Shown here in pieces: positions 2,284 to 28,711 of a DNA stretch of 64,000 nucleotides. The notes beneath the pieces were generated by a model. That model worked only from the letters and a program-made list of their open reading frames with translations. It was not told the origin of the DNA and made no database searches. The DNA comes from Candidatus Baltobacteraceae bacterium. Lineage in GTDB: Bacteria; Vulcanimicrobiota; Vulcanimicrobiia; Vulcanimicrobiales; Vulcanimicrobiaceae. The stretch spans positions 1 to 64,000 of the forward strand of contig DATBTN010000047.1 in the NCBI GenBank assembly GCA_036559195.1, in the 5' to 3' direction. Every line of letters starts with the position of its first letter. Within the stretch, counting starts at the first letter, position 1. The position numbers and the translations under genes were made by a program.

Positions 2284-3426
2284 TCAGCCCTCGGGACGCT
2301 CGTAGACCCAGCGCATGATGCCGCTCGTGAGGACGCGGTGCTCGATGGGATGCAGACGTTCGAGAATCGCGGCGGCATCCTCGCCGGGGACGATGGCCAG
2401 CGGCTTGCGTACGAGCACCGGGCCGCAATCGGCGTCGAGCGTGACCCGATGCGAGCTGGCGCCGACCCAGCGGCTTTCGTCGCGGAGCGCGTCGCGAATG
2501 GCGTGTGCGCCGCGGTAGGCGCGAATCTGCGAGCCGTCGGGCATGCCGACAACGTCGCGCGACTGGTCGAGCGGGAGAAACGCCGGATGAATGTTGATCA
2601 TCTCGGGAAATGACGCGACGAACGATGCGTCGAGCAGATGCATCCAGCCGAGAAGCAGCACGAGTTCCGGAGCGCTCGCTTCAACCTCACGCCGTAACAG
2701 GTCATCGTAGTCCGCGCGCGTCGTGGTGGCGCGGTGCCACGGCAAAATCAGCAGACTGCGAACGTGCGCCGCGCGTGCGCGCTCGATCGCGTAGGCGCGT
2801 TCGTTATTGGTCACGAGCGTCGTGATCTCAAGCGGGAGGCGTCCGCCCCCGACCGCATCGAGAACGGTTTGAAAATTGCTGCCGTTTCCGCTGGCGAGAA
2901 CGGTCGTGCGCCATTTGCGTTGTTGCCACCGGTCTTTTTCAAAGCGCTCGACGATTCGCGCGCCGGTGTGCCGCGCGTAGTATGCGATCAGCTTCTCCTC
3001 GCCGACAGCCGGAATCAACGCGTGCGCATACCCATTTTCCCGTAGGGATGCAAGCGCGGCAATTAGCAGATTCGGTCCCGCGGGCGAGCCGCGAAATGCG
3101 GGGTCGACGCCAAACGGCCCGAAGATGCCGACGTCCGGCCGCGCGCCATATCCGCGCAGCCACGAGAATTTCAAACCTTGAGCCGCGTACGCGGCAAAAC
3201 CCACGTGCCGGTCGCGCGACGTTGCGACGACGTTGTTGGCGGCGAAGGCTTCGGAGCTCCACGTTCCGCCAAATGCGTCGTCGAGCCACGCGAGCAAACG
3301 ATCGTCCGCGCGCCCGCGTTCGAATGAAAAGCCGCCGGACTCGATCGCCCCGCGCGCCCGCGCCAACGCGTCGGGTGCGAATCGCTCGTCGCTCAGGTCG
3401 ACGAGCAGGTTGACCATCTCGTTCAA
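2284..3426 (-). CDS. purN: GNAT acetyltransferase domain fused to PurN (GAR formyltransferase)
   Basis: The C-terminal half (about 173-380) is phosphoribosylglycinamide formyltransferase, which transfers formyl from 10-formyl-THF to GAR in purine synthesis. ASGNGSNF (178-185) is the nucleotide loop. NIHP (278-281) holds the catalytic Asn and His, and D333 in DADCGPV matches the catalytic Asp. The loop after NIHP is unusual. Residues ~10-165 form a GNAT N-acetyltransferase-like domain with motif A GVDPAFRGSPAGPNLL (106-121). Standard PurN is about 200 residues, so this is a true two-domain ORF of 380 aa. The start is TTG at 3426, overlapping the purM stop by 4 bp; ATG at 3417 is the alternative. 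The acetyltransferase substrate is unknown. Confidence 0.88.
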   Translation of the reverse strand: MNEMVNLLVDLSDERFAPDALARARGAIESGGFSFERGRADDRLLAWLDDAFGGTWSSEAFAANNVVATSRDRHVGFAAYAAQGLKFSWLRGYGARPDVGIFGPFGVDPAFRGSPAGPNLLIAALASLRENGYAHALIPAVGEEKLIAYYARHTGARIVERFEKDRWQQRKWRTTVLASGNGSNFQTVLDAVGGGRLPLEITTLVTNNERAYAIERARAAHVRSLLILPWHRATTTRADYDDLLRREVEASAPELVLLLGWMHLLDASFVASFPEMINIHPAFLPLDQSRDVVGMPDGSQIRAYRGAHAIRDALRDESRWVGASSHRVTLDADCGPVLVRKPLAIVPGEDAAAILERLHPIEHRVLTSGIMRWVYERPEG

Positions 3427-4454
3427 GCGCGAGCGGGATGAACGACGACTTGCGCTTCGGTCTCGCGACGCGCCTCGATCCAGCCGATCACGTTGGCACC
3501 CGGCACCGCTGCGACCGCCTTTGCGGCGTCGGCGAGCGGAACGATCAGTGTATATCCGATGCCCATGTTAAACGTGCGGTAGCGATCCTCGTGCGCGAGA
3601 TTGCCGCGCCGGCACAACTCGCCAAAGAGCGGCGGAATCTGCCAGCGCGATTGCTCGAAGACGGCCTTCGCCGCCGGCGGAAGCGTCCGCGGAACGTTCT
3701 CGAGCAGGCCGCCGCCGGTAATGTGCGCCATCGTCTTCACGGTAGCGACGCGCTGAATCGCGCGCACTTCCGGCAGGTACGATGGGTGCTCGGCCAACAG
3801 CGCATCGCCGAAGGTTCGGCCGTCAAACGCGTCCGGCCACTCGGCCGCGGGAATCAGCTTGCGCGCGAGCGTGTAGCCGTTGGTGTGTAGCCCCACCGAC
3901 GGCAACCCCACGATCGCATCGCCCGGCTCAACAGTCGCTGCGTTCGGAACGTCGGCGATATCGACGACGCCCACGATCGTTCCCGCGAGATCGAAGTGAC
4001 CGGGAGCATAGAGACCGGGCATCTCGGCCGTTTCGCCGCCCAGCAACGCGCAATTGTTCCGGCGGCAAGCCTCGTAGCACCCTTTAACGACGTCGGCGGC
4101 AACCTGCGGATCGAGTTTGCCGACCGCAAAGTAGTCGAGAAAAAACAACGGCGTCGCGTTCACGACCAAGATATCGTTGACGCAATGATTCACGAGATCC
4201 GCGCCGACCGAGTCGTAACGGCCCATCTCGGCGGCGATCAGGATTTTGGTGCCGACGCCGTCGGCCGAGGCCACGAGCGCGCGTCCGTCGTCGCCCGGCA
4301 TCTTGAACAGCCCGCCAAAGCCGCCGAGCGCGTCGAGCTGATCCGGGTGCCGCCATCCCGCCGTGACGCCCTTATAGCGGGCGACCGCCTCGTTTCCGGC
4401 GGCGATATCGACTCCGGCCTGCGCGTAGGCGTCGGTGGAGCGAGGGGTGGTCAT
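3423..4454 (-). CDS. purM: Phosphoribosylformylglycinamidine cyclo-ligase (AIR synthetase)
   Basis: PurM converts FGAM to AIR with ATP, the fifth step of purine synthesis. The 343-residue protein shows family hallmarks: DGVGTKILIA, VNDILVVNATPLFFLDY, GGETAEMPGLY and HITGGGLLENVPR. I chose ATG at 4454 because GGAGG lies eight bases upstream. A longer frame starting at 4496 adds 14 unlikely residues. It overlaps purN by 4 bp, so the two are translationally coupled. pepA is divergent, 96 bp away, so this gap must hold both promoters; no convincing -35/-10 pair was found there. Confidence 0.95.
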   Translation of the reverse strand: MTTPRSTDAYAQAGVDIAAGNEAVARYKGVTAGWRHPDQLDALGGFGGLFKMPGDDGRALVASADGVGTKILIAAEMGRYDSVGADLVNHCVNDILVVNATPLFFLDYFAVGKLDPQVAADVVKGCYEACRRNNCALLGGETAEMPGLYAPGHFDLAGTIVGVVDIADVPNAATVEPGDAIVGLPSVGLHTNGYTLARKLIPAAEWPDAFDGRTFGDALLAEHPSYLPEVRAIQRVATVKTMAHITGGGLLENVPRTLPPAAKAVFEQSRWQIPPLFGELCRRGNLAHEDRYRTFNMGIGYTLIVPLADAAKAVAAVPGANVIGWIEARRETEAQVVVHPARA

Positions 4455-4550
4455 AGGAAAGCCTCCAGCGCAGGGCCATTGGTCGAGTGGATACAAAACA
4501 GTAATTCCGCCATTGCGGCCTTAGACGTTCACCCAAGCGAAAGGTTCACC

Positions 4551-15273: not shown

Positions 15274-16551
15274 CTATACTAGCGACGCCGCGATGTCGGT
15301 TCGGTACGTCAAGTCGGCCGATCCGAGCCGGACCGCGAGCGAGGTGACGGCCGAATAGGCGTTGGCGCGCGCCTGCGCGACGTCGTCGCCGAGCGCCGTG
15401 ACGGTGAGCACGCGGCCGCCGCCCGAATGGACCGCACCGTTCCGCAGCGTCGAGCCGCCCCAAAACGCAGCTTGGCCCTCTCCGGCGAGAGAAATATCTT
15501 CGGTCAACCCCTCGAGCGGCGTGCTCGTGCGCGGGTAATCGCTCGTCGCCAGCACGACGCCGACGCACGTTTTATCGACGAACGAGGCGGCGCTGAGATC
15601 GAGTGCGCCGTCGGCCGCCGATTTCAACAACGCGGCGAAGTCGCCGGCGACGCGGGGCATCAGCACCTGCGTTTCGGGATCGCCGAACCGCACGTTGAAC
15701 TCGATGACGTACGGACCGCGCTTGGTCCACATCAGACCGCAATACAACACACCGATATAGGTCTCGCCCTCGGCGAGCAAGCCGCGTAACACCGGTGACA
15801 AAATGCGCTCGCGGACGAGATCGTCGGTATTTTCCGGAAAACCGACTGGCGGCGAGTAGGCGCCCATGCCGCCGGTGTTCGGGCCCGTATCGCCGTCGCC
15901 GGCGCGTTTGTAGTCGCAGGCAGCTGCGATGGGGTACATCGCCCGGCCATCGCAGAGAGCGAACACGCTGATCTCGCGGCCCTCAAGCTTCTCCTCGAGC
16001 AGCACGTCGGTGCCGCCGCCGGGAATGCGGCCCGCGCCGTACCACTCGTCGAGTACGCCGCGCGCCTGGGCGACGCCGTCGGCGACCACGACGCCCTTAC
16101 CCGATGCCAAACCGTCCGCTTTGATAACGACCGCGCCCCATTGCCAATCGTCGAGCGCCTTACGCGCGCCGTCGAGCGAATGAACGACCACCGCCCGGGC
16201 GGTCGGCACGCCGTGACGCTCCATGAAGCGTTTTGAAAACACCTTGCTCGATTCGAGGCGGCCGCCCGACCGGTTCGGTCCGAAGGTAGCGATGCCGGCC
16301 TCGCGCAAGCGGTCCGCAACGCCCGCCGCGATAGCAACCTCCGGGCCGATGACGACGAGATCGATGCCCTCAGCGCGAGCCTTCGCGACCAATTTCTTCC
16401 CTTGGGTCGGGGCGATCTCCCAATTTTCACCGCGCGATGCGGTGCCGGCGTTGCCGGGCGCCGCAAAGATCGCGTCGCAGGAGGCAGAAGCCGCCAAGCG
16501 CCACGAGAGCGCGTCTTCACGCGCTCCGCTGCCGACGACGAGAATTTTCAT
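15274..16551 (-). CDS. purD: Phosphoribosylamine-glycine ligase (GAR synthetase)
   Basis: ATP-grasp enzyme making GAR from phosphoribosylamine and glycine. 425 aa, usual length. Motifs: KILVVGSGAREDAL, AAPGNAGTA, FGPNRSGGRLESSK, VIKADGLASGKGVVV, and VIEFNVRFGDPETQ. The ATG at 16551 overlaps the guaA stop as ATGA, the coupling pattern used elsewhere in this operon; an ATG two codons earlier is possible. It is the last gene of the purine operon, followed by 232 bp without a gene. Confidence 0.95.
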   Translation of the reverse strand: MKILVVGSGAREDALSWRLAASASCDAIFAAPGNAGTASRGENWEIAPTQGKKLVAKARAEGIDLVVIGPEVAIAAGVADRLREAGIATFGPNRSGGRLESSKVFSKRFMERHGVPTARAVVVHSLDGARKALDDWQWGAVVIKADGLASGKGVVVADGVAQARGVLDEWYGAGRIPGGGTDVLLEEKLEGREISVFALCDGRAMYPIAAACDYKRAGDGDTGPNTGGMGAYSPPVGFPENTDDLVRERILSPVLRGLLAEGETYIGVLYCGLMWTKRGPYVIEFNVRFGDPETQVLMPRVAGDFAALLKSAADGALDLSAASFVDKTCVGVVLATSDYPRTSTPLEGLTEDISLAGEGQAAFWGGSTLRNGAVHSGGGRVLTVTALGDDVAQARANAYSAVTSLAVRLGSADLTYRTDIAASLV

Positions 16552-18128
16552 TCCCATTCCACCGTGGACGGCGGCTTCGACGTGATATCGTACGCGACCC
16601 GATTGACGCCCGGCACCTCGTTAACGATGCGCGTGCTGATGCGCGCGAGCAGCTCGTGCGGCAGACGCGCCCAATCGGCGGTCATTCCGTCCTCGCTCGT
16701 GATCGCGCGAACCGCCACCAGATTCGCATACGTGCGCCCGTCTCCCATGACGCCGACGCTCTTGACCGGCGTGAGCACGGCGAAATACTGCCAGGGCTTG
16801 GGATTCAAATGCGCGGCGTCGATTTCGTCGCAGACGATCGCATCGGCTTCGCGCACGAGCGCCAGACGTTCGTCGGTGATCTCGCCGATGATGCGCACCG
16901 CGAGGCCGGGCCCCGGAAAGGGCTGGCGCTGCACGATGTGGTCGGGGAGACCCAGCACGCGTCCGACCGTGCGAACCTCGTCCTTGAAGAGCGAGCGCAA
17001 CGGCTCGATCAGCGAGAAGTTCATCTCTTCGGGCAGACCGCCGACGTTGTGATGCGACTTAATCTTGTGGCCCGCTTTGCTGCCGGGAGTCTTCGATTCG
17101 ATCACGTCGGGATAGAGCGTGCCTTGCACGAGATACTTGACGCCCGGAATCTTAGCCGCTTCCTCTTCGAAGACTCGAATGAACTCGTGCCCGATGAGGA
17201 TGCGCTTCTGTTCGGGATCCTCGATACCGTCGAGCTTGCGCAGAAAGCGTTCGCGAGCGTCGATCGCAATGACGTTGAGGTGCAGCACGTCGCGAAAGGC
17301 CGTTATGACGCGCGCCGCTTCGTCTTTACGCAGTAGTCCATGATCGACGAACACGCAGGTCAGCTGCTCGCCGATGGCGCGCGACACGAGCGTCGCGGCC
17401 ACGGCCGAGTCGACGCCGCCGGAGAGCGCGCAGATGACCTTGTCGTTGCCGACCGCTGCGCGAATCTCGGCTACCGATCGATCGACGAACGAGTCCATCT
17501 GCCAGTCGGACTGGATCCCGGCGATGTGATGCAAAAAATTATCGAGAATCTGCCGGCCGTGTTCGGTGTGAACGACCTCGGGATGGAATTGAACGCCGTA
17601 GATCTTGCGCTCGGCGCAGCCCATCGCCGCGATGGCGCATCGCGGCGTCGACGCAAGTTCGGCAAACCCGTCGGGCAGGTTCGTTACCGAATCGCCGTGC
17701 GACATCCAAACGCGCGACTCGGCCGGCACGTCGTGCAGCAGCGGGGTGTCGCGCCGATCGACTCGCAGGGTCGCCGGTCCGTACTCCGCGTGATCGAGCT
17801 TCGTGAGTTCGGCGCCCACGTCGCGCGCGAGCAGTTGCATGCCGTAGCAGATACCGAGGATCGGCACGCCGCTGCGCGCGATCGCCGGATCCATCTGCGG
17901 CGCGCCGGGCACGAGCGTCGATTCGGGACCGCCGCTCAGGATGAGCGCGGCCGGTTTGCGTGCCGCAAGCGTGCTCCAAGGCGTGTCGTACGAAACGATC
18001 TCGCAATACACGTTCATTTCGCGCGTCCGGCGCGCGATCAACTGACTGTACTGCGCGCCGAAATCGAGAATAAAGACCGTCGCCGGCTCGCTACCGGCCG
18101 GCGTGTGTTCCTGAGCTGGGGAAAGCAT
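16548..18128 (-). CDS. guaA: GMP synthase (glutamine-hydrolysing)
   Basis: Amidates XMP to GMP. Domains in order: class I glutamine amidotransferase (nucleophile Cys in GICYGMQLLA; HPEVVHTEHG), ATP pyrophosphatase (ALSGGVDSAVAATL), and the dimerisation domain ending DITSKPPSTVEWE. About 526 aa. GGGAGGGG lies directly before the ATG at 18128, so I prefer it to the ATG at 18140. It is coupled to purD by ATGA and follows a purP-like gene by 36 bp. guaB is not in the window. Confidence 0.95.
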   Translation of the reverse strand: MLSPAQEHTPAGSEPATVFILDFGAQYSQLIARRTREMNVYCEIVSYDTPWSTLAARKPAALILSGGPESTLVPGAPQMDPAIARSGVPILGICYGMQLLARDVGAELTKLDHAEYGPATLRVDRRDTPLLHDVPAESRVWMSHGDSVTNLPDGFAELASTPRCAIAAMGCAERKIYGVQFHPEVVHTEHGRQILDNFLHHIAGIQSDWQMDSFVDRSVAEIRAAVGNDKVICALSGGVDSAVAATLVSRAIGEQLTCVFVDHGLLRKDEAARVITAFRDVLHLNVIAIDARERFLRKLDGIEDPEQKRILIGHEFIRVFEEEAAKIPGVKYLVQGTLYPDVIESKTPGSKAGHKIKSHHNVGGLPEEMNFSLIEPLRSLFKDEVRTVGRVLGLPDHIVQRQPFPGPGLAVRIIGEITDERLALVREADAIVCDEIDAAHLNPKPWQYFAVLTPVKSVGVMGDGRTYANLVAVRAITSEDGMTADWARLPHELLARISTRIVNEVPGVNRVAYDITSKPPSTVEWE

Positions 18129-18164
18129 CGCCCCTCCCATTCGGCTTGGGTGGGTCAGGCTCTT

Positions 18165-19298
18165 TTACGTGAGGACTTCCTCCAGGCGATTTTGGTCGCG
18201 CGCGAATACCACTTCCATGGCGACGCGCTCGCCGACCGAAACGTCGCGACCCCAGCGGTACGCCGAGTAGGGCGTGTAGCGGGTGCCCGGCGATCCCGGT
18301 ATACGCAGCGACACGTCGTAGCAGATAAAATCCTTGGGCGGCCCGGCCACGATAATGCACTGCAGCGCGAACGGTCCGATGACGCCCGGCGGATTTGCTT
18401 CGCGCGCGGCCGCAACGAAGCGCTCGCCCATCTCGAAGGCTTTTTCCAGCGTCGATTCGGTCAACGTCGTCGCAATATGGCCGGCCTCTTCCATCCGCAT
18501 CGGTACGTTCTCGACGTATTTGAGCGCGCCGGGCGGAACGTTGCGCAAGCCGTCGATGTTGGTTTGACGGCGCGTATCGGTGCCGGAGAGTTCGAGTTCG
18601 CCCAAGATCGGCGAATAAAAGAAGTTCAGGTTGACCGATGGGCCCAGCGCGTATTCCTCGATGACCGCGTTGGCGAGACCACCCTCATCGAGCATCCCCT
18701 CGGCGATCAAACGATCGGCCACCGCGCGATATTCGCGCGGCGACGAGCAGAGAAAGAACGCGCGCTCGAAGCTCACCTTGGCGTGCGGCGCCTTGACCAT
18801 CACGAGGCGGTCGATATCCTCCGGCGATGCGAACTGCCGCGGGTAACGGATCCCGGCGCGCCGCAAGAGCGCGTACTGATTGTCGGCTTCGTCGCGCTCC
18901 TCGGCCCGCAGCAACCGGCGATTTCCGAACATCGGCACCTTCATCCCGCGTTCGATCTCGTCGTAGCTAAAGCGCTGATGGAGATACACTTCGAACGAAC
19001 GATTCGCGAGAAAGATCGCATTGCGCGCGAGCAACTGCGCCTGGACATCCTCGCGCAGAATATCCGCAAACGAGTCGAGCTCGATCGTCGCGTCGACGCA
19101 GCCGCGCGGCGGGTCGCTCGCGACGGCGTAGTGTCGCGCGTACGTCTGCTCGCGGCCCTTCGCCGTCACGATGACATTTCGCAAGCCCTGCGCGCGCGCG
19201 CCGTAGGCCACGTCGAGCGCCGAGTGGCTACCGATCGAGCAGAGCGCGAGTTCCGAGCGATCGTAGCGCGCGAGCGCGCTTCGTACTAAGTCGTCCAC
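18165..19298 (-). CDS. Divergent PurP-like protein (second copy), possible loss of ATP-grasp activity
   Basis: 377 aa, with N-terminal DUF1246-like (GSHSALDV, 23-30) and C-terminal DUF1297-like regions, as in the archaeal formate-dependent FAICAR synthetase PurP. Compared with the other copy in this operon, several hallmarks are changed. VPHGSF has become LANRSF (97-102), the glycine-rich ATP loop GAKGGKGY has become HAKVSFERAF (172-181), and MEISARIVAG has become YDVSLRIPGS (327-336). It may have lost ATP use or changed substrate. GTG start at 19298. It lies between a secreted protein and guaA, with 36-bp gaps on each side. A role in the missing IMP cyclohydrolase step is possible but purely speculative. 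Confidence 0.7.
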   Translation of the reverse strand: MDDLVRSALARYDRSELALCSIGSHSALDVAYGARAQGLRNVIVTAKGREQTYARHYAVASDPPRGCVDATIELDSFADILREDVQAQLLARNAIFLANRSFEVYLHQRFSYDEIERGMKVPMFGNRRLLRAEERDEADNQYALLRRAGIRYPRQFASPEDIDRLVMVKAPHAKVSFERAFFLCSSPREYRAVADRLIAEGMLDEGGLANAVIEEYALGPSVNLNFFYSPILGELELSGTDTRRQTNIDGLRNVPPGALKYVENVPMRMEEAGHIATTLTESTLEKAFEMGERFVAAAREANPPGVIGPFALQCIIVAGPPKDFICYDVSLRIPGSPGTRYTPYSAYRWGRDVSVGERVAMEVVFARDQNRLEEVLT

Positions 19299-19334: not shown

Positions 19335-20450
19335 CTAACCGCTTAACAGGGTCCGCGCCTGCGGCGAATCCTGATATTCGACGGTGAGGATCGAGCGAAT
19401 ATGCGTCGCGGCGCCGCGAGCGTCGGCGGTGTTCATTCGGCCGAGCGTCTTGTAACATTCCAGCAGCAGTTTTGGGAGGTCGCGGTCCCGCGGATAGACC
19501 TTGTGCATATCGTCGATCGAGACCGCAACCTGCAGGCCCTGACCGCTCTCGCGGTCGCCGTAACCGGCGTTCAGATACGTATTGATGCGCTTGAGTTCGT
19601 TCTGGATACCGAGCACCGACATTCCAAGCGGGCCGAAGTACTCGTCCGCCGGGGCGAGCGTCGTGAGATACACGTCGTGCGGTACGGCCCGCACGCTCCC
19701 GATGATCAGGAGCGGATCGACCTTGTTGATGCGCGCCAGCACGGCGGCCGCGTTGGTTTGGTCGCCCTGGGTGTAGCCGTCGGCTCCGGCGCCCGCGTTG
19801 CGCAGCGCGTTGACGAACTCCGGGCCCCACGTCGTCGGCAGGTGCGCGATCGGAAAGTTGGCGTCGTTGGCACGTTGGAACGCGAGGCTGCGCCACGACG
19901 TGTCCTTCGTAATGATGTAGCCGCGCCAATCCGCTTCCACTTGCTGCAGGCGCGCGTCGAGATCGCGCGGGTACGTCTGAACGTTCGCGCTCGCATCTCG
20001 ATCCGCCAACTGCGCGAGCTTCGCGGGATCCTCGAATGCCGTCGCGCGAGCGAGCAGGTCGCGCGCTTTGGTCTGCTCGTTTACATCCGCGTTGTTTTTC
20101 TGCACGTAGACGGCGGCCTCGCGCACCCACCACAGCGATGCGTCGTGGTTGGTAAGCGGATCGTAGTGAAGGCCGGTAGCGATGTCCACGGTTAACTGCG
20201 CGAGTTCGCCATAGTTCGGATCGTCCGGACGCTGCAGCGAGTAGGCGCGGCCCGCGTTGAAGATCGTCGAGAGGTAGAACTCCTGATCGACGAATCCCCA
20301 CCCGTGAGCGGTGCCTTTATCGTAGGCCGCCTTCATCTCCGTATAGAGTTTCTGCGGATCGGCCATCAGCGCGGCCTGGGAGGCCGCCGGCAGCAAGAAA
20401 GCGACCGCACAAACGGCCAGGGCTAGAAACTTACAATACGCTCGAGTCAT
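19335..20450 (-). CDS. Secreted alpha-helical protein of unknown function inside the purine operon
   Basis: 371 residues with a signal peptide (FLALAVCAVAFLLPAASQA). The mature part is helical and repetitive, TPR-like in places (DPQKLYTEMKAAYDKGTAHG; KLLLECYKTLGRMNTADARG), with no catalytic motif that I recognise. The ATG at 20450 lies within the last 20 bp of purP, so it is almost certainly cotranscribed and perhaps translationally coupled. An exported protein between two purP copies is unexpected. It could simply be a hitch-hiker, or it could help take up or process purines outside the membrane; neither is shown. Confidence 0.7.
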   Translation of the reverse strand: MTRAYCKFLALAVCAVAFLLPAASQAALMADPQKLYTEMKAAYDKGTAHGWGFVDQEFYLSTIFNAGRAYSLQRPDDPNYGELAQLTVDIATGLHYDPLTNHDASLWWVREAAVYVQKNNADVNEQTKARDLLARATAFEDPAKLAQLADRDASANVQTYPRDLDARLQQVEADWRGYIITKDTSWRSLAFQRANDANFPIAHLPTTWGPEFVNALRNAGAGADGYTQGDQTNAAAVLARINKVDPLLIIGSVRAVPHDVYLTTLAPADEYFGPLGMSVLGIQNELKRINTYLNAGYGDRESGQGLQVAVSIDDMHKVYPRDRDLPKLLLECYKTLGRMNTADARGAATHIRSILTVEYQDSPQARTLLSG

Positions 20451-21459
20451 CAAGTACCAAACGTAGATTGTTCGTTAAAAGTGCGTTTTTTAATTCGCGC
20501 GCGATCCGCCGGCCGGTCGACATCGGCTCCGAGTAGTTCAGATACGAGTACGGCGATCCGTCGATGAAGAGATTCGAGCCGGCGACGATGCGCGCCGATA
20601 TCTCCATAATGTAGAACTGAATGTCGGGCGTGATGATCGTCTCGATGCAGAATGCGCCGAAGAGCCCCTTGGGTCCGCAGATTTCCTTACTCACGCGAAT
20701 CACGTCTTCGCCCATGCGATAGGCCTCCGCAAGCATCGACTCGCGTAACGACACCGGCTGATTGCCGACGACGACGTACGAGGGGCTTACGTCCATGCCT
20801 TCTTGCGCGGCGGCCGGAATCCGGCCAAGCGAGTCCACGTTCGTTTCGTAGCGGCGATCCATCGACATGATTTCGAGTTTGTCTTCGAGCGGCGAATAGA
20901 AATAGTGGATGTAGAGCGGCACCCCGATGATGTATTCCTGGATCATGTATTCTTCTTTGAGGTGGCCGGCGCGCTCTTCAAAATCGTGCGCGTCCTGCAA
21001 GAACATGTACCCTTTGCCGCCCTTCGCGCCGTACAGTTTCACGATCACCGGGCGATCGATCTCGGCACCGCTCTTGAATTGGCGCGGTAATTTCAAGCCG
21101 GCGCTCGAAAGCCACTGGCGTTGGAGTTCGCGACTGGCTTCCCAATCGAGCACGGCTTTGTTGCCGAAGTACGGAATCGTCATCCTCTTGTGCTCCTCGA
21201 GCGAGAGGTATGCAACGAACGAACCGTGCGGCACGATGATGAGCTTGCGCTTCTTTAACTCGTCCAACAGGTCCGGGAAATCTTGGTATCGGTCGATCGT
21301 GATCACTTCGTCGACGAAGCGAAACGAACGGTACAGACGCTCGGTCTCGCGATTGGCGATCGCGAGTGTCGGAAACCCCTCGTCGTGCGCGCCCTTGAGG
21401 ATCTGCAATGCCGAGTGCGAGCCGAGCGTCGCGATCGCGTATTGTCCGTTGAGAGTCAT
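20431..21459 (-). CDS. purP: FAICAR synthetase PurP (archaeal-type, formate-dependent)
   Basis: 342 aa, the usual PurP length. It shows the archaeal PurP signatures GSHSALQIL (13-21), VPHGSF (76-81), PVIVKLYGAKGGKGY (137-151, ATP-grasp loop) and MEISARIVAG (285-294). The established archaeal enzyme makes FAICAR from AICAR, formate and ATP, replacing the transformylase half of PurH. Presence in a bacterial pur operon is unusual. The ATG at 21459 overlaps the purS stop as ATGA. Since no PurH or PurO is present in the window, the enzyme closing FAICAR to IMP is unknown. All conserved blocks are intact, so I expect activity. Confidence 0.88.
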   Translation of the reverse strand: MTLNGQYAIATLGSHSALQILKGAHDEGFPTLAIANRETERLYRSFRFVDEVITIDRYQDFPDLLDELKKRKLIIVPHGSFVAYLSLEEHKRMTIPYFGNKAVLDWEASRELQRQWLSSAGLKLPRQFKSGAEIDRPVIVKLYGAKGGKGYMFLQDAHDFEERAGHLKEEYMIQEYIIGVPLYIHYFYSPLEDKLEIMSMDRRYETNVDSLGRIPAAAQEGMDVSPSYVVVGNQPVSLRESMLAEAYRMGEDVIRVSKEICGPKGLFGAFCIETIITPDIQFYIMEISARIVAGSNLFIDGSPYSYLNYSEPMSTGRRIARELKNALLTNNLRLVLDDSSVL

Positions 21460-21860
21460 CCGAAGTGCGCCCTTTCGATGGCCGGGTTACAAAGAAGTTT
21501 GGTCGCCGCATCGGTCAGGATGGCGGCGTCGACCGGCTCGTTGCCCGCCGAGAACAGACGCCAGGCCACGTAGCGGCGCGGTCGCGAGGGATCGTTGGCG
21601 GCGAGTTCCTCGATCCACGTTTCGCCCGTAAGCGGAATCGCGTTCTCGCGAACCTCGAGTACGTGTTTGTTGGAGTTAAAGAGCGTCTCGTTGCGCGCGA
21701 TGCGGTCGACGAAGTCGCCGTTCCCGGCGGCCGCTTGGGCGTAGATGACGGCGCGCTCCACGCGGGCGACGTCGACGCCGAGCCGGCGCAACGCGGTCAG
21801 CGCGGTATACGCCTCGTTGTCGGGGATTTTCAGACGAATCGCGACGGCTGGTCCGGTCAT
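21456..21860 (-). CDS. purS: PurS-like subunit of FGAM synthase, with a central insertion
   Basis: 134 aa where PurS is normally about 80-85. The first 40 residues (VAIRLKIPDNEAYTALTAL) and the last 25 (ILTDAATKLLCNPAIERAHF) match the two halves of a PurS ferredoxin-like fold. About 50-65 residues are inserted between them (roughly 42-108), including NETLFNSNKHVLEVRE. PurS joins PurQ and PurL to deliver ammonia for FGAM formation. ATGA overlaps on both sides (purQ and purP) support this assignment by context. The function of the insertion is unknown. Confidence 0.7.
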   Translation of the reverse strand: MTGPAVAIRLKIPDNEAYTALTALRRLGVDVARVERAVIYAQAAAGNGDFVDRIARNETLFNSNKHVLEVRENAIPLTGETWIEELAANDPSRPRRYVAWRLFSAGNEPVDAAILTDAATKLLCNPAIERAHFG

Positions 21861-22621
21861 CGCAGCGCTCGCGCAAAGCTCGCGAAGAGTGCGACGCCGC
21901 CGGAGGGCGCGAGGATATCGCCCGGGCCGCGCGAGTCGGGGTGGTTGAAGTTCCAGGCGTCGCGTTCGGGATGCGGCATGATGGCGAGCACGTTGCCCGC
22001 TCCGTTGGTCAGCGCCGCGCACCCGATCGCCGATCCGTTGGGATTGGCGGCGGCGTCGACGCTGCCGTCCGCGTGTGCGTACACGAACGCCACGTGACCG
22101 CCGGCCTCGATCTCTTCCAAATGATCGTCGGTTGCCGCGAGCCGGCCCTGGCCGTGCGCGGCCCACGCCGGAATGACCGCGTCTTTGGCGAGCGACGCGG
22201 TGATCGCGCAGCGCGCCGGGTCGATCGCGAGCTTCACGTGCACGTGTTTGCAGACGAACTTCGGCACCGGAGCGTTGTGCGTGAAAGCGGCGGTCGGTTT
22301 GCGAATCGGGCCGGTTCCCGGAACGAGACCGGCTTCGAGCAGAATCTGCGCTCCGTTACAAATTCCCAGAACGAGCTTCCCGCGCTGCGCGCCCTCGATC
22401 ACGGCATCCATCATCGGGTCGTGCGCGGGGACGGCGCCTGCGCGAATGCGGTCTTCGTATGCGAATCCGCCCGGCAGCACGTAGGCATCGAAATTCGCGA
22501 GCGCGGCAGAACGGCTCCAATGCACGAGCTGCGCGTCCATTCCAACGTCGCGAGCCAAGCGCAACGATTCTTCCTCGCTGTTGGTGCCTGGAAAGATCAA
22601 TACCGCAACCTTGCCGCTCAT
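21857..22621 (-). CDS. purQ: FGAM synthase glutaminase subunit
   Basis: Class I glutamine amidotransferase that supplies ammonia to PurL. Nucleophile Cys in LVLGICNGAQILLEAGL; catalytic His/Glu in IMPHPERDAW; the N-terminus is KVAVLIFPGTNSEEE. 254 aa, slightly longer than the Bacillus protein. ATG at 22621 overlaps the purL stop (ATGA); the ten-codon upstream extension is rejected. Its end overlaps purS in the same way. Confidence 0.93.
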   Translation of the reverse strand: MSGKVAVLIFPGTNSEEESLRLARDVGMDAQLVHWSRSAALANFDAYVLPGGFAYEDRIRAGAVPAHDPMMDAVIEGAQRGKLVLGICNGAQILLEAGLVPGTGPIRKPTAAFTHNAPVPKFVCKHVHVKLAIDPARCAITASLAKDAVIPAWAAHGQGRLAATDDHLEEIEAGGHVAFVYAHADGSVDAAANPNGSAIGCAALTNGAGNVLAIMPHPERDAWNFNHPDSRGPGDILAPSGGVALFASFARALR

Positions 22622-24924
22622 GCGTAGACCTCGGTCAGCGGTTTCGCCCACGCATCGTGAAGCGTTCGAAGGGAGAACGCATCCTCATCGATGGCGAGGA
22701 CCGGCTGATCGATCGTCACGCCGATCTCGTGCACGAAGGGCAGGTCGGCGCACATCGCCTCGAACGCCGCTTGATCGGCCGCCTCGACGACGAACCCGCC
22801 CGCCTCACCAAAGAGGGCTTCCGCATCGCCAACCTCGCCCTGCGTCCACGCGCACGGGTCGTCGAGTTGCGCGCCGATGGCGTTCGAATGGAGCGTGGCA
22901 AACGCCATCTCGGCAACGGCTGCAAGGAGGCCACCGCCGCAGACCGCGCGCGCGGCATTGACGGCGCCCGCCTCAATCGCTTTGGAGAGCACGTCGTTCT
23001 CTGCGCGCGCCCGAACGAGATCGACCGGCGGCAACGGTGCGTCCCGCACGTCCAAGAGTTCGGCGAGGACCGAGCCGCCGATCGCGTTGGACGCGTCGCC
23101 GATATAGTAGAGCACCGAACCCGCACGTTTGAACGGCGCGGTCACGACCTTTGCAACGTCCTGCAAACCGCCCACGCAAGCGACGATCGGCGATGCCGGA
23201 ATGGCGTTGCCGTTCTTCGATTCGTTGTACAGGCTCACGTTGCCGGAGACGTAGGGCGTCCCGAGCGCGCGCGCCGCTTCGGCGAGCCCGTCGATCGCGA
23301 CCACGAGCTCCGTATAGTGATCGGGATTTTGCGGATTGCCGAAGTTCAAACAATCGGTGAGTCCGAGCGGGCGCGCGCCGACTGCAACGACTTTGCGAAC
23401 CGATTCTGCGACCGCGAGCACCGCCGCCGCCCGCGCATCGATTCGTCCGTAACGCGGGTTGCCGCCCACGCTCAAAGCGACGCCTAACGGCGACCCGTGA
23501 ACCGGCGCGATAACGCCGGCATCGGCCGCGCCGCGCGCGATGACCGTCGTCCCGCGAACGACGGAGTCGTACTGCTTGTAGAGCGGCGCGCGCGAACACA
23601 CGTCGCGGTGTCCCAACACGCGTTCGAGAAGCTCGCTCGCGGCGCGATCGCCCTCCACGTAGCGCTTCGCTGGATCGAGGTCGGGCGGCACCGCGCGTTC
23701 GTGCACGGCGAGTTCGTCGCGGATCGAACCCGTCAGAAAGTCGATCGGAACGTCCATCACGATCTCGTCGCCGTGCCGAAGGACGTAGTGCATCTGCTTT
23801 TGCACCGCGCCGATCACGACGGCCCGAGCGCCCCGTGCGATTTCCGGCAGCGAGAACTCCTGATTGTAAATGCTCAACACGGCCGCCGTAGCGTCGGGAG
23901 GAAGCACCCAACACAGCCGCTCTTGCGTCTCGCCGATGGCGATCACTTCGGGCGGCATGTTCTCGAGAGCCGTGTTAACGTCGTCGAGATCGATAATCGC
24001 GCCGAAGCCGCCGCTGCTGCAGATCTCGGCCGAACATCCCATGATTCCGCCCGCGCCGAGATCTTTGAATCCGGCGGTGATCTTGTGCTCGCGCAAATAC
24101 GCAAAGACGCGATAGCTCGCGCGCATGATGACGTTTTTGAGAAATGGATCGGGGACTTGCACGGCGCCCCTGTTGGCGTCGGCATCCGCGTCGTCGAGCG
24201 TGACCGATGAAAACGCCGCGCCGCCGAATCCGCTCGTGTCGGTCGCCTTGCCGACTAAAACGATGTCCCAGCCTTCGGAGTGCGGCGGCGCCGCCGAATG
24301 GATGATCTCCGACTCTTTGATCAAACCGAGCGCCACCACGTTGACCAAGCAATTATCGTCGAAGCGATCGTCGAAATACACGTCGCCCGCGATGTTCGGC
24401 ACACCGATCGCGTTGCCGTAGGCGCCGATGCCGTCGACCGCACCCTGCGCGACATAGCGCTGGTGCGAGTCGGGATTCTCGACGCGCCCGAAGCGCAGCG
24501 GGTCGGCGATCGCGATCACCTCGGCGCCCATACAGAGCACGTCGCGGACGATGCCGCCGACGCCGGTCGCCGCGCCTTCGAACGGCACGACCTGCGAGGG
24601 ATGATTGTGCGATTCGTGCGCGATCACGACGCCGTAGCGCTCGCCGTTCCACTCGCCCAGATGCAAGATGCCCGCATCCTCCGCGGGCCCCTGCATAACC
24701 GTGGGGCCGTCGATCGGAAGCGCGCGCAGCAGATGACGGCTGCTCTTATACGAACAATGCTCGCTCCACTGCGCGTCGAACGCATGTACTTCAACGACGC
24801 TCGGATCGCGCCCGAGGCGTTCGGCGATTCGCCGCAGTTCGTCGACGCGTAACGCCAGACCGGCACGGGAGGCCGCGGCGTGCAATGCCTCGTCGGTGAG
24901 ACCGTTGACGGCGAAGTTACGCAA
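22618..24924 (-). CDS. purL: FGAM synthase catalytic subunit (small PurL)
   Basis: 768 aa, the Bacillus/archaeal small PurL that works with PurS and PurQ to convert FGAR to FGAM. Motifs: FDAQWSEHCSYKSSR near the N-terminus, VIAHESHNHPSQVVPFEGAATGVGG, DLGAGGIMGCSAEICSSGGFG, and LTDCLNFGNPQNP. It begins with TTG at 24924 inside the end of purC (8-bp overlap), a coupling arrangement like those of dapA and purN in this window. Its stop overlaps purQ. Confidence 0.94.
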   Translation of the reverse strand: MRNFAVNGLTDEALHAAASRAGLALRVDELRRIAERLGRDPSVVEVHAFDAQWSEHCSYKSSRHLLRALPIDGPTVMQGPAEDAGILHLGEWNGERYGVVIAHESHNHPSQVVPFEGAATGVGGIVRDVLCMGAEVIAIADPLRFGRVENPDSHQRYVAQGAVDGIGAYGNAIGVPNIAGDVYFDDRFDDNCLVNVVALGLIKESEIIHSAAPPHSEGWDIVLVGKATDTSGFGGAAFSSVTLDDADADANRGAVQVPDPFLKNVIMRASYRVFAYLREHKITAGFKDLGAGGIMGCSAEICSSGGFGAIIDLDDVNTALENMPPEVIAIGETQERLCWVLPPDATAAVLSIYNQEFSLPEIARGARAVVIGAVQKQMHYVLRHGDEIVMDVPIDFLTGSIRDELAVHERAVPPDLDPAKRYVEGDRAASELLERVLGHRDVCSRAPLYKQYDSVVRGTTVIARGAADAGVIAPVHGSPLGVALSVGGNPRYGRIDARAAAVLAVAESVRKVVAVGARPLGLTDCLNFGNPQNPDHYTELVVAIDGLAEAARALGTPYVSGNVSLYNESKNGNAIPASPIVACVGGLQDVAKVVTAPFKRAGSVLYYIGDASNAIGGSVLAELLDVRDAPLPPVDLVRARAENDVLSKAIEAGAVNAARAVCGGGLLAAVAEMAFATLHSNAIGAQLDDPCAWTQGEVGDAEALFGEAGGFVVEAADQAAFEAMCADLPFVHEIGVTIDQPVLAIDEDAFSLRTLHDAWAKPLTEVYA

Positions 24925-26122
24925 GGCGGACGTTCGGCGGCATCGACGGTTGCGGCGGATTGAGCGCGGCGTCCGCCTGTAAGATCACCGAACGCGCGTT
25001 GGTTTGCACGAGTAAGGTTCGCCCGAAGAGCACGGTGTCGTCTTGAGCGAGCATTTTCGCGCACTGGAGTGCCGCCCCGGCCGGATCCCCCGAGCCTTCG
25101 AGTACCGGATTGGTCGTACCGTCCTCGATCATGGCGCGCAGCGCGCCGTCGGTCCCGCCCAGCGTGACGTAGATCAGCCGCGCGAACGTCGCATCGTGTT
25201 GCGAGAGAAGCTGTAAAACGAAGCCCGGCGTTCGCGTCGCGCTTGCGACGTGGCGAATCGCCGGCAGGCCGAACTGCGCGAGCGCCTGGCCGACCGCATC
25301 GATGGCCGGCGTTTGTTCGGGCGTCTCCGCGAAGATCGCGACCATTCCCGGCCGCATCGTCGGAAACGAGCCGACGAATTCGGCGACTTGCTCGTAGGCG
25401 GCCTTAACGCCGGCGAGCCCGCTTTCGTCGACCGTTTCGAGATTGCGATACATCTGCTTATCGAGCATCCGGTCTTCGCGGCCCTGCGGCCAAATGCGCC
25501 ACGAATCGTTGTCGATCACGTCGGCGATGACCAGTTGGCCCTTGCCGTCGCCGCCGACCAAACGGCCGAATTCGATCTTCAAGTCCACGAGCAGCACGTC
25601 GCGTTTGCGCCAGGCGTGCGCGAGAATCTCGAAGGTCAGCCGCGCGAGTTCGGTCATGATTCCGATCTCTTGCGGATTGGCAATGCCCTGCGCGACGATC
25701 GCGTCCGGGGAGATCAGCGGATCGTGATTCGCGTCGTCCTTGACGAAGAATTCGACCATGCGCGGCACGAGCAGCGATCCGCGCTGCATTCCGGGATTTC
25801 GCCGCGCGAGCGATCCCGCGACGACGCCGCGTACCACCACTTCGAGAGGAATCATGTTCGCGCGGCGCACGAGCATCTCGTTGTCGTCGTCGTCCTCGCC
25901 GCCGTTGACGTAATGCGTCGGCAGACCGCACAGATTCAGCAACCGAAAAACACGCGCCGTCGTCTGCGCCGCCAGCCGCCCCTTGCCGGCAATCTCATTA
26001 CGCCGCGCCCCGTCCCCCGCCGAAATCGAATCCGTCTGCTGCACCACCAACATATCCGGCTGCCCCGGATGCTCAAAGAGCACTTTGGTCTTGCCCCGAG
26101 TAATTTCGATGCCCTTATTCAT
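24917..26122 (-). CDS. purC: SAICAR synthetase PurC fused to a degenerate PurE-like domain
   Basis: 401 aa. Residues 1-250 are PurC, joining aspartate to CAIR: RGKTKVLFEHPG, SISAGDGARRNEIAGKG, ANMIPLEVVVRG, LLVDLKIEFGR and VIDNDSWR. Residues about 259-388 resemble PurE (AIR carboxylase/mutase) in order and length but have lost its motifs. The canonical MGSxSD start is replaced by FAETPEQ (264-270), and SAHRTP by SATRTP (294-299), losing the catalytic His. A PurC-PurE order resembles animal PAICS. The PurE-like part may be structural or regulatory, in which case AIR carboxylation needs another enzyme. ATG at 26122 with GGAG upstream. Confidence 0.85.
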   Translation of the reverse strand: MNKGIEITRGKTKVLFEHPGQPDMLVVQQTDSISAGDGARRNEIAGKGRLAAQTTARVFRLLNLCGLPTHYVNGGEDDDDNEMLVRRANMIPLEVVVRGVVAGSLARRNPGMQRGSLLVPRMVEFFVKDDANHDPLISPDAIVAQGIANPQEIGIMTELARLTFEILAHAWRKRDVLLVDLKIEFGRLVGGDGKGQLVIADVIDNDSWRIWPQGREDRMLDKQMYRNLETVDESGLAGVKAAYEQVAEFVGSFPTMRPGMVAIFAETPEQTPAIDAVGQALAQFGLPAIRHVASATRTPGFVLQLLSQHDATFARLIYVTLGGTDGALRAMIEDGTTNPVLEGSGDPAGAALQCAKMLAQDDTVLFGRTLLVQTNARSVILQADAALNPPQPSMPPNVRLA

Positions 26123-26249: not shown

Positions 26250-27668
26250 TCATGGTGTAGTCACTTCTTTTTGGGTTGGGAAGGGGGCGAGGGATTCGAG
26301 TTTTTCGGCGAGTTGGCGGGCGCGTTGGGGGGCGGTGCCGACGTGGGTGGTTGGGTCGAGCATGCGGCGGATTTCGGCGGGGTCTACTCGCGCGGTGAGT
26401 TCGGGATCCTCGGCCAGCAGCTGGCCGAGCGGGTTGTCGGCGCCGGCGGCGATCGCGTTCCAGGACTCCATGGCTGCGCCGCGCAGCGATTCGTGCAGTT
26501 CCTGGCGGTTGCCGCCGGCGCGCACGGCCTCCATCATCACCGATTCGGTTCCCGCAAACGGACCGTACGTGCGCAGATTCTGCGCGATGCGGCGCGTATC
26601 GATGCGCAGTCCGTCGACGACGCGCTGTGCGAGCGAGACGATCTCGTCGACGCAGAGCAGCGCTTCGGGAAGAATCGTCCTACGATTCGCGCTGTCGTCG
26701 AGCGTGCGTTCCAAATAGTTGGTCGCGGCATTTTGCCAAGCGACGTCGGCGTATCCCGGGAGCAGGCGCGCGAGCGAATCGATCCGTTCGCACATGATGG
26801 GATTGCGCTTGAACGGCATCGCCGAACTGCCGACCTGCGTTTTGCCGAACGGTTCGAAGACCTCGCCGAATTCGGGCGAGCTGAGGATGCGCACGTCGGC
26901 CGCAAACTTCGAGAGCGAGGCGCCCACACCGGCCAGCGCCGTGAGCAGCAGGTAATCGAGTTTGCGCGGATAGGTTTGCGTGCTGATCTCGCGCGCTTCC
27001 AATCCGAAGTGTTCGAGCACTTCGCGTTCCATCGCCGCCGACGCGCCCGAGCCGTTAAAGAGCTGCTCGTACGACGCCGACGTTCCGACGGCGCCGCGCA
27101 GCCCCTTCGCGGTCAAATTCTCAAATGCAAAGCGCAGAGCCGCGTCGTCGATCAGCAGATCTTGCGCGTAGACCGCGAACCGATAGCCGAGGGTCGTTGG
27201 TTCGGCCGGCTGCAGATGCGTGAACGCCATGCATACGAGGTCGGCATTCTCGCGAATCTTCACGGCGAAACTCGCGAGCAAATCGTCGAGCGCGCGGCCC
27301 ACGAGCGCGAGACCGCGCCGCAAGCGATAGGTCTCCACGGTGTCTTCGATATCCATCGAGGTCGAGCCGAAATGGATCTTGCCGCCGCCAAGGGTTGCCT
27401 GCGACGCGAAGACCCGAATCTCGGCCATCAGATCGTGATGAATCTCGCGTTCGATCGCGAGCGCCGCTTCGATATCGACCTCACCCGCGTGCGCGCGAAT
27501 GTCGGCGAGCTCCTCGGCCGAGACCAGCCCCGACGCGGACTGGGCCTGCGCGAGCGCGACCCAAACCTGGCGCCAGAGCTTGCGGCGTTCCAGTTCTGAA
27601 AATAACGTGCGAAGTTCTGCGCGGCCGTATCTCCACGAGAACGGCGAAGCGTATGCTTGATAATCCAT
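26250..27668 (-). CDS. purB: Adenylosuccinate lyase
   Basis: Fumarase/aspartase-superfamily enzyme acting twice in purine synthesis (SAICAR to AICAR; adenylosuccinate to AMP). The signature SSAMPFKRNPIMCERI is present, as are IHFGSTSMDIEDT and FTHLQPAEPTTLGYR. 472 aa from ATG 27668 (MDYQAYASPFSWRYG); a start nine codons earlier is possible. It is the first pur gene of the operon. A repeat element lies just upstream, and 127 bp separate it from purC. Confidence 0.94.
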   Translation of the reverse strand: MDYQAYASPFSWRYGRAELRTLFSELERRKLWRQVWVALAQAQSASGLVSAEELADIRAHAGEVDIEAALAIEREIHHDLMAEIRVFASQATLGGGKIHFGSTSMDIEDTVETYRLRRGLALVGRALDDLLASFAVKIRENADLVCMAFTHLQPAEPTTLGYRFAVYAQDLLIDDAALRFAFENLTAKGLRGAVGTSASYEQLFNGSGASAAMEREVLEHFGLEAREISTQTYPRKLDYLLLTALAGVGASLSKFAADVRILSSPEFGEVFEPFGKTQVGSSAMPFKRNPIMCERIDSLARLLPGYADVAWQNAATNYLERTLDDSANRRTILPEALLCVDEIVSLAQRVVDGLRIDTRRIAQNLRTYGPFAGTESVMMEAVRAGGNRQELHESLRGAAMESWNAIAAGADNPLGQLLAEDPELTARVDPAEIRRMLDPTTHVGTAPQRARQLAEKLESLAPFPTQKEVTTP

Positions 27669-27710
27669 GGGATACGAGGCCGTTTCGTCGCACATCACGG
27701 CGTGCCTGTC

Positions 27711-27734
27711 GTCCTTCGACAAGCTCAGGATGAC
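27711..27734. repeat. Interspersed repeat, single copy
   Basis: One copy of the GTCATCCTGAGCTTGTCGAA unit, on the minus strand. It overlaps the 3' end of holA and provides its last codons (TCA TCC) and the TGA stop, then runs towards purB. Confidence 0.85.
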
Positions 27735-28711
27735 GTGGTGCGACTTAAGGCGGAGAGTTCGGCGGTGAGCATCTCCACGAGCAGCTTCGGGTCGTCGGTT
27801 TTGCCGGTGACGATGGCCTCGAAGCCGCGGACGGCGCGCTCGTAAGCGATGCGCGCCCGGCGTTCGCCCACGCGAGCGGCGACCGGCCGCAGAAAACGCT
27901 CGCGCCACTTCGCACGCGCGGGCAGCGTGCCGCCGGGGCGCGCCAGTTCCCAGAGCAGCCCGCACTCCGTGGCCAACGCGCTCACGAGCGGTATTCCCGC
28001 GCCGCGCGGATCGTTGGCGAACATCTCGAGCGCGATCCCCAGGGCGACGTCGACCCGCCCTTCAACGAGGGCGCTCGCGTATTGGTAGGCTTTCGGATCC
28101 TCGACCGCGAGGCTCTCGCGCTCGAGGTCGTGGTAGGTGATTTTCTTGCCGCCGAGGGCGAGTTTTTCCAGGTCGTTGCGCACCGCTGCGAGGTCGGCAC
28201 TGCTGCGCGCCAACTCGTCGACGACGCGCGCATCGGCGCTCGATCCCAGTCGCGTTAGCGTCTCCTGGATAAATCGGGTGCGCGCGTCTTCGTTGGTCGT
28301 CGTATCGATGCGCAGCGCGCTGCGCCCCGCCATGGCGCCGAACGGCTCCGGACGCTGCGCGCGCGGCGAAAGCAGATCCAGCAGCACGAGCGTGTTGCCG
28401 GCCGGAACCGCTTGCGCGACTTCCCAGAGCTCGCGGCGCGGCGCGGCGCGCAGCGTCTGCGTATCGGTAACGACGACCAATCGCGATTCGGCGAGAAACG
28501 GCATCGCTTGCACGGCTTCGCGCACGCGGCCGGCATTATCGAGCTCGGCCGCTGCAAAACGCTCGAGATTGAGATCGCGCATGCCGGCATCGGGCAGGAC
28601 GCGGTCCACCAGCATATCGAGCGCGCGGTCGGCCAGCACCCGCTCGGTCCCCTCGACGACAACCAGCTTGCCGATCGCGGGCGTCTTGTCGACGAAATCG
28701 TAGAACTTCAT
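27725..28711 (-). CDS. holA: DNA polymerase III delta subunit (clamp loader)
   Basis: 328 aa. Recognised by layout and segments: GKLVVVEGTERVLADRALDML, VQAMPFLAESRLVVVTD, RFIQETLTRLGSSADARVV, DLAAVRNDLEKLAL, and the C-terminal helical domain. The delta subunit opens the beta clamp within the clamp loader. ATG at 28711 overlaps the mtnA stop (ATGA). Its C-terminal TTSS and stop come from the repeat unit, so the original end has been replaced. purB follows by 57 bp. Confidence 0.88.
   Translation of the reverse strand: MKFYDFVDKTPAIGKLVVVEGTERVLADRALDMLVDRVLPDAGMRDLNLERFAAAELDNAGRVREAVQAMPFLAESRLVVVTDTQTLRAAPRRELWEVAQAVPAGNTLVLLDLLSPRAQRPEPFGAMAGRSALRIDTTTNEDARTRFIQETLTRLGSSADARVVDELARSSADLAAVRNDLEKLALGGKKITYHDLERESLAVEDPKAYQYASALVEGRVDVALGIALEMFANDPRGAGIPLVSALATECGLLWELARPGGTLPARAKWRERFLRPVAARVGERRARIAYERAVRGFEAIVTGKTDDPKLLVEMLTAELSALSRTTSS

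Follow-up and report, generated by a model that had tools for sequence, protein, structure and literature searches.

The gene at positions 18165 to 19298 (minus strand) of the window, the 64,000-nucleotide stretch of DNA analyzed here, encodes a PurP-like protein, PurP2, that is a bacterial member of cluster II, an ancient and strictly conserved sister family. Archaeal PurP-like proteins were split into clusters Ia, Ib and II by Brown et al. in 2011, and cluster II has been known from archaea since then, without an assigned function (PMC3261824). PurP2 thus represents a class-wide bacterial form of a cluster already described. Its departures from the PurP motifs are the fixed signature of this family and not private losses, and conversion of FAICAR to IMP is the leading hypothesis for what the protein may do. 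The positions that carry the assignment are as follows, with M. jannaschii PurP numbering given as Mj.

18165..19298, minus strand: purP2, cluster II PurP-like protein of 377 aa (ORF, domain matches, alignment, tree and profiles)
19209..19226, minus strand: HSALDV codons, from His25 (Mj His27), a His common to clusters I and II
18993..19010, minus strand: LANRSF block; Arg100 (Mj93) is invariant in cluster II, Gly in cluster I
18747..18794, minus strand: loop KAPHAKVSFERAFF, from K169 (alignment; criterion from PMC3261824)
18477..18479, minus strand: His274 (Mj258; alignment)
18285..18317, minus strand: DVSLRIPGSPG, with Asp328 (Mj310, Glu in cluster I) and Arg332 (Mj314, common to both clusters)

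The ORF starts with GTG, has no internal stops, and matches over their full length both DUF1246 (2.3e-34, 118 bits, cut-off 25) and DUF1297 (2.6e-53, 181 bits, cut-off 23.8), the two PurP domains that are also a criterion for cluster II (PMC3261824). The preliminary description had read the gene as a second PurP paralogue that had lost its ATP-grasp signatures. It saw correctly that GSHSAL is retained and that VPHGSF, GAKGGKGY and MEISARIVAG are replaced, the alignment giving LANRSF, HAKVSFERAF and YDVSLRIPGS in their places, and the protein is indeed a PurP homologue with changed motifs. The loss is partial, however: the lysine K169 (Mj K156, retained in both clusters) and the E(E)Y hinge stay, so that ATP-grasp residues are partly present, and the family itself is old. 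Nucleotide binding by PurP2 may persist, since the ATP-grasp lysine is retained. On a proper alignment the ATP site is nevertheless not intact, the P-loop glycines being lost. The loop KAPHAKVSFERAFF, compared with KFPGARGGRGYF, has two residues more than the P-loop of cluster I, lacks GG, and includes an invariant Arg179. PurP2 lacks the Gly-rich ATP P-loop expected of a FAICAR synthetase, and at Asn258, Glu310 and Asn320, which belong to the AICAR and presumed metal site, it has H, D and G.

Published cluster II traits are a loop that exceeds the ATP P-loop by two residues and lacks its glycines, basic residues at Mj 161-165, a His without exception at Asn258 of cluster I, and retention of His27 and Arg314 (PMC3261824). 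PurP2 shows every published feature of the cluster (domains, loop, Mj258, His27/Arg314, tree position and Ib partner), and it is accompanied by one cluster Ib gene, purP1, as is usual in cluster II. Position Mj258 is His in 68 of 68 aligned cluster II proteins and Asn in 126 of 126 from cluster I. The two clusters separate with 100/100 support in a tree of 88 proteins (IQ-TREE), PurP2 falling within II and PurP1 within I; as both clusters are spread over many archaeal lineages, this split marks the sister family as ancient. PurP2 scores 456 bits with the cluster II profile against 249 with that of cluster I, a difference of 207, and PurP1 shows the reverse, with both profiles built from archaea and CPR only and thus independent of members of the window's class. 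Tree and profile scores together indicate an old sister family and not a local duplicate that lost its function. A recent duplication of purP1 is ruled out, since PurP2, only 30% identical to PurP1, is nearer to M. jannaschii PurP, its best solved relative (2r7k, 225 bits), in addition to the 100/100 split.

Ten residues (Mj R93, E123, R124, N208, N210, Q230, E255, H258, T262 and D310) are each shared by 97% or more of the cluster II proteins, taken over archaea, Patescibacteria and the window's bacterial class, and by no more than 2% of those in cluster I. Conversely, E230, N258 and E310, invariant in cluster I, are replaced in all or nearly all cluster II proteins, and N320 in most. Two subtypes of cluster II are visible at Mj 316-320: GGGTN, with Asn320 retained, in crenarchaeal and Asgard-type proteins, and PGSPG in thaumarchaeal relatives, DPANN, CPR and the window's class.

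purP2 is under strong purifying selection. Close pairs within the window's class give dN/dS of 0.02 to 0.10 at dS of 0.14 to 0.41 (Nei-Gojobori, pairs with higher dS being less reliable), and the ORFs of relatives are intact. The earlier suggestion that selection maintains a new role is supported by these ratios and by the ten family-specific invariant residues. A decaying pseudogene, which a high dN/dS would indicate, is ruled out by the intact ORFs in relatives, the low ratios and the invariance across domains of life, leaving this explanation a negligible probability. Structure predictions made for both copies are confident: the AlphaFold2 model of PurP2 (pLDDT 94.9) has the PurP fold, with a TM score of 0.93 to M. 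jannaschii PurP with AICAR, and that of PurP1 reaches pLDDT 91.0.

The purine operon runs in the order purB, purC, purL, purQ, a small gene, purP1, the gene of a 372-aa protein, purP2, guaA and purD, which bears out the operon place first given to purP2, between the gene at 19335-20453 and guaA. It is listed here with two further purine genes of the window.

26250..27965, minus strand: purB (ORF); the true start is internal to the ORF, as the PurB match begins only near residue 111
24917..26122, minus strand: purC with a C-terminal PurE-like part (profile matches)
22618..24924, minus strand: purL (profile matches)
21857..22651, minus strand: purQ (profile matches)
20431..21459, minus strand: purP1, cluster Ib PurP (formate-dependent AICAR ligase type) of 342 aa, P-loop GAKGGKGY intact
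19335..20453, minus strand: 372-aa protein between purP1 and purP2
16548..18140, minus strand: guaA, GMP synthase, 24 bp downstream of purP2
15274..16557, minus strand: purD (profile matches)
3423-4496: purM, adjoining the PurN-type gene
2284-3426, minus strand: PurN-type formyltransferase domain behind an N-terminal GNAT acetyltransferase-like domain (sub-threshold)

The 372-aa protein has no Pfam or NCBIfam match and evolves fast; in most of family f1 its gene separates purP1 from purP2. The gene is probably a later insertion, because it is missing from other relatives, where purP1 and purP2 touch. Between purQ and purP1, at about 21456-21870 (minus strand), lies a small conserved protein without a Pfam match, and no purS was seen in the operon. 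The C-terminal PurE/AIRC-like half domain of PurC scores 23 bits, below the Pfam cut-off of 30.

Conservation of the pair across related genomes is extensive. At least two PurP-family genes occur in 105 of the 117 genomes of the window's class (families f1, f2 and f3), one in 7 and none in 5, most of these last two groups being incomplete. Elsewhere in the phylum only 1 of 32 genomes has a PurP match; this sole case (G146, L156) is on a contig with archaeal-looking genes and is probably contamination. A MAG labelled Aquificota (L144) holds a methanogen-type cluster Ia PurP together with a stand-alone PurH N-domain protein, from either contamination or transfer. Among named genomes, the purP1/purP2 pair is found in crenarchaea, thaumarchaea, Asgard-type archaea, Woesearchaeota, Micrarchaeota and Patescibacteria. 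Cluster II is present in 61 of 65 genomes with cluster Ib, the 4 exceptions all being draft assemblies, and in none of the 14 with cluster Ia only. The two genes are usually adjacent, and many are at most 40 bp apart or overlap. In CPR, Woesearchaeota and the window's class, purP2 lies in purine operons beside purB or guaA.

The window's class branches beside Microgenomates in both the PurP1 and the PurP2 subtrees, with Woesearchaeota nearby (IQ-TREE). For PurP2 the sister link to Microgenomates is weak (86/50), but support rises to 100/98 for the larger clade that also takes in Woesearchaeota. Since both trees place the class beside Microgenomates, the simplest reading is that purP1 and purP2 moved between lineages as a unit, and most likely purP2 was acquired ready-made along with purP1. 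The mirror-tree correlation of the two proteins is 0.80, a value reached in none of 2,000 permutations, which is evidence of co-inheritance but no proof of contact. A mobile or viral copy was ruled out, purP2 having no match in plasmids or viral contigs.

The proposal that PurP2 might be a missing cyclohydrolase fails for the window's own genome and finds support elsewhere. Both PurH domains are intact in the window's genome: the IMPCH residues K66, Y104, D125 and K137 are present, as is the AICARFT Lys-His pair. PurH is found in 92 of 99 members of the family. PurH covers the step, so a missing cyclohydrolase is ruled out there and purP2 is not present simply to fill a gap. The genome also has a PurN-type protein; PurO and formate-tetrahydrofolate ligase were not found in it. 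The survey across lineages covered the 79 genomes behind the named loci, many of them incomplete MAGs, and counted PurO or the PurH N-domain as a known IMP cyclohydrolase. One of these was present in 11 of 14 Ia-only genomes (10 PurO, 1 PurH N-domain), as against 10 of 61 genomes with Ib and II (2 PurO, both in Thermococcus, and 8 PurH N-domain); the search for PurO and the PurH N-domain thus came up empty in 51 of 61 and 3 of 14, respectively. Fisher's test on this difference gives P = 1.6e-5, a value that ignores kinship and overstates independence, because the PurO contrast comes mainly from one methanogen clade. In a Roizmanbacteria genome (L126), purF-N-D-L-Q-M-C-E-B are all assigned, covering PRPP to AICAR, and purP1 and purP2 are present; neither PurH nor PurO was found, leaving one open step and one unassigned gene, purP2. 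At two loci (L101 and L143), purH lies between the two purP genes. At a Woesearchaeota locus (L187), the two PurH domains are encoded by separate neighboring genes (767-1357 and 1417-2643). No gene had been assigned to the archaeal IMP cyclohydrolase as of 2019 (PMC6797443). Across other lineages, cluster II tends to occur where no known IMP cyclohydrolase was found. This supports a role for it in converting FAICAR to IMP, alone or with PurP1, and for many archaea makes it the strongest candidate for the final step of purine synthesis.

According to Brown et al., the formyl group is contacted by His27 and Arg314, the phosphate by several residues, Ser94 and Ser266 among them, and the carboxamide by Asn258 (PMC3261824). 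Cluster II retains His27 and Arg314 and mostly the serines, changes Asn258 to His, and drops the ATP loop and the presumed metal residues. Closure of the IMP ring would need an enzyme able to hold FAICAR without using ATP and with a His placed at the carboxamide, a description that PurP2 would fit. We regard it as an even call that PurP2 and its Ib partner PurP1 together carry out the last two steps to IMP as a formate-dependent module. In it, PurP1 would convert AICAR, ATP and formate to FAICAR. PurP2 retains the ribonucleotide and formyl pocket (His25, Ser101, Ser282 and Arg332), has lost the ATP phosphate loop and metal ligands, and has His274 in place of the carboxamide-touching Asn; it would bind FAICAR, His274 would serve as the general base, and the ring would be closed to IMP by PurP2 acting singly or as part of a mixed PurP1/PurP2 oligomer. 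Family membership, co-inheritance, purifying selection, phyletic pattern and fold are what the analysis shows, and from there we infer the substrate, chemistry and complex formation of PurP2. In the window's genome the simplest reading is a parallel formate-driven module, which would run beside the folate-dependent PurH; in lineages without PurH and PurO, the module would be the sole route to IMP. Tentatively, and with chances somewhat short of even, cluster II may be a third, unrelated IMP cyclohydrolase family, derived from an ATP-grasp ligase minus its ATP site, that makes with Ib a self-contained, formate-driven AICAR-to-IMP module and has spread into a bacterial class.

Against the cyclohydrolase reading stand the presence of PurH in the window's genome and nearly all of its family, where the step is not missing, the eight other II-positive genomes with a PurH-type cyclohydrolase domain, the two loci with purH between the purP genes, and the retained ATP-grasp lysine with its hint of nucleotide binding. 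In the main rival, which is compatible with the cyclohydrolase reading and which we judge rather unlikely, PurP2 is an obligate, non-catalytic partner: it would join PurP1 in a mixed oligomer, where formate-dependent AICAR formylation would require it or be regulated by it. The near inseparability of Ib and II favors this rival, as do the constant absence of II beside Ia, which is active alone, the adjacent and overlapping genes, and the retention of both genes even where PurH supplies the cyclohydrolase. P. furiosus Ib (PF1517) and II (PF0421) were, moreover, each reported to lack AICAR formyltransferase activity (PMC3261824). Yet the ten invariant residues of the family and the retained His27 and Arg314 at the formyl site resemble an active site, and a purely structural partner would leave 51 II-positive genomes without any cyclohydrolase.

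Improbable by comparison is an ATP-grasp-like enzyme acting on another substrate outside the AICAR-to-IMP steps: the change of contact residue 258 from Asn to His, the altered metal and loop residues and the retained lysine are consistent with it, but the formyl and phosphate contacts are kept, and purP2 sits in purine operons by purB or guaA in three groups. The same fold and the K156 equivalent could also belong to a redundant second FAICAR synthetase whose ATP loop has changed. This is very improbable, as the Gly-rich loop occurs in no cluster II member, the cluster I residues E230, N258, E310 and, in most, N320 are replaced, and the tight pairing with Ib would be left unexplained.

PurP has been called exclusively archaeal (PMC4177761), a label at odds with its fixation throughout a bacterial class. 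For Crenarchaeota and some Thermococcales, the IMP cyclohydrolase had become a recognized gap in this universal pathway by 2011 at the latest, and it continued to be one in 2019 (PMC6797443). If the cyclohydrolase reading is true, PurP-Ib and cluster II together would complete the purine pathway of Crenarchaeota, Thaumarchaeota and PurH-less Patescibacteria. The present survey gives a sharper pattern than the earlier "imperfect phyletic pattern" and adds streamlined bacterial operons in which just one step lacks a gene and just one gene lacks a step, as well as naming residues to mutate.

PurP2 resembles archaeal cluster II proteins (PF0421, AF0256; PMC3261824) in its glycine-free loop with two extra residues, His258, His27 and Arg314, in its Ib partner gene and in its location near guaA or purB. 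It differs in that its host is a bacterium with a full PurH as well, and in its C-terminal motif, PGSPG as in CPR, Woesearchaeota and some thaumarchaeal relatives, in place of the crenarchaeal GGGTN. With M. jannaschii MJ0136 (cluster Ia, PDB 2r7k-2r7n) it shares the fold and the AICAR phosphate and formyl contacts, but the ATP P-loop, Asn258, Glu230, Glu310 and Asn320 are replaced, and identity over the structure is 34%. PurP1, a cluster Ib protein like P. furiosus PF1517, has the same two domains, pathway and operon; unlike PurP2, it retains every PurP signature and falls on the other side of the 100/100 split. PurO and PurH2 have different folds (PMC6797443), and the N-domain of PurH and PurO share with PurP2 the proposed reaction from FAICAR to IMP, whereas PurP2 has no match to PF07826 (PurO) or PF01808 (PurH) and matches PurP models only.
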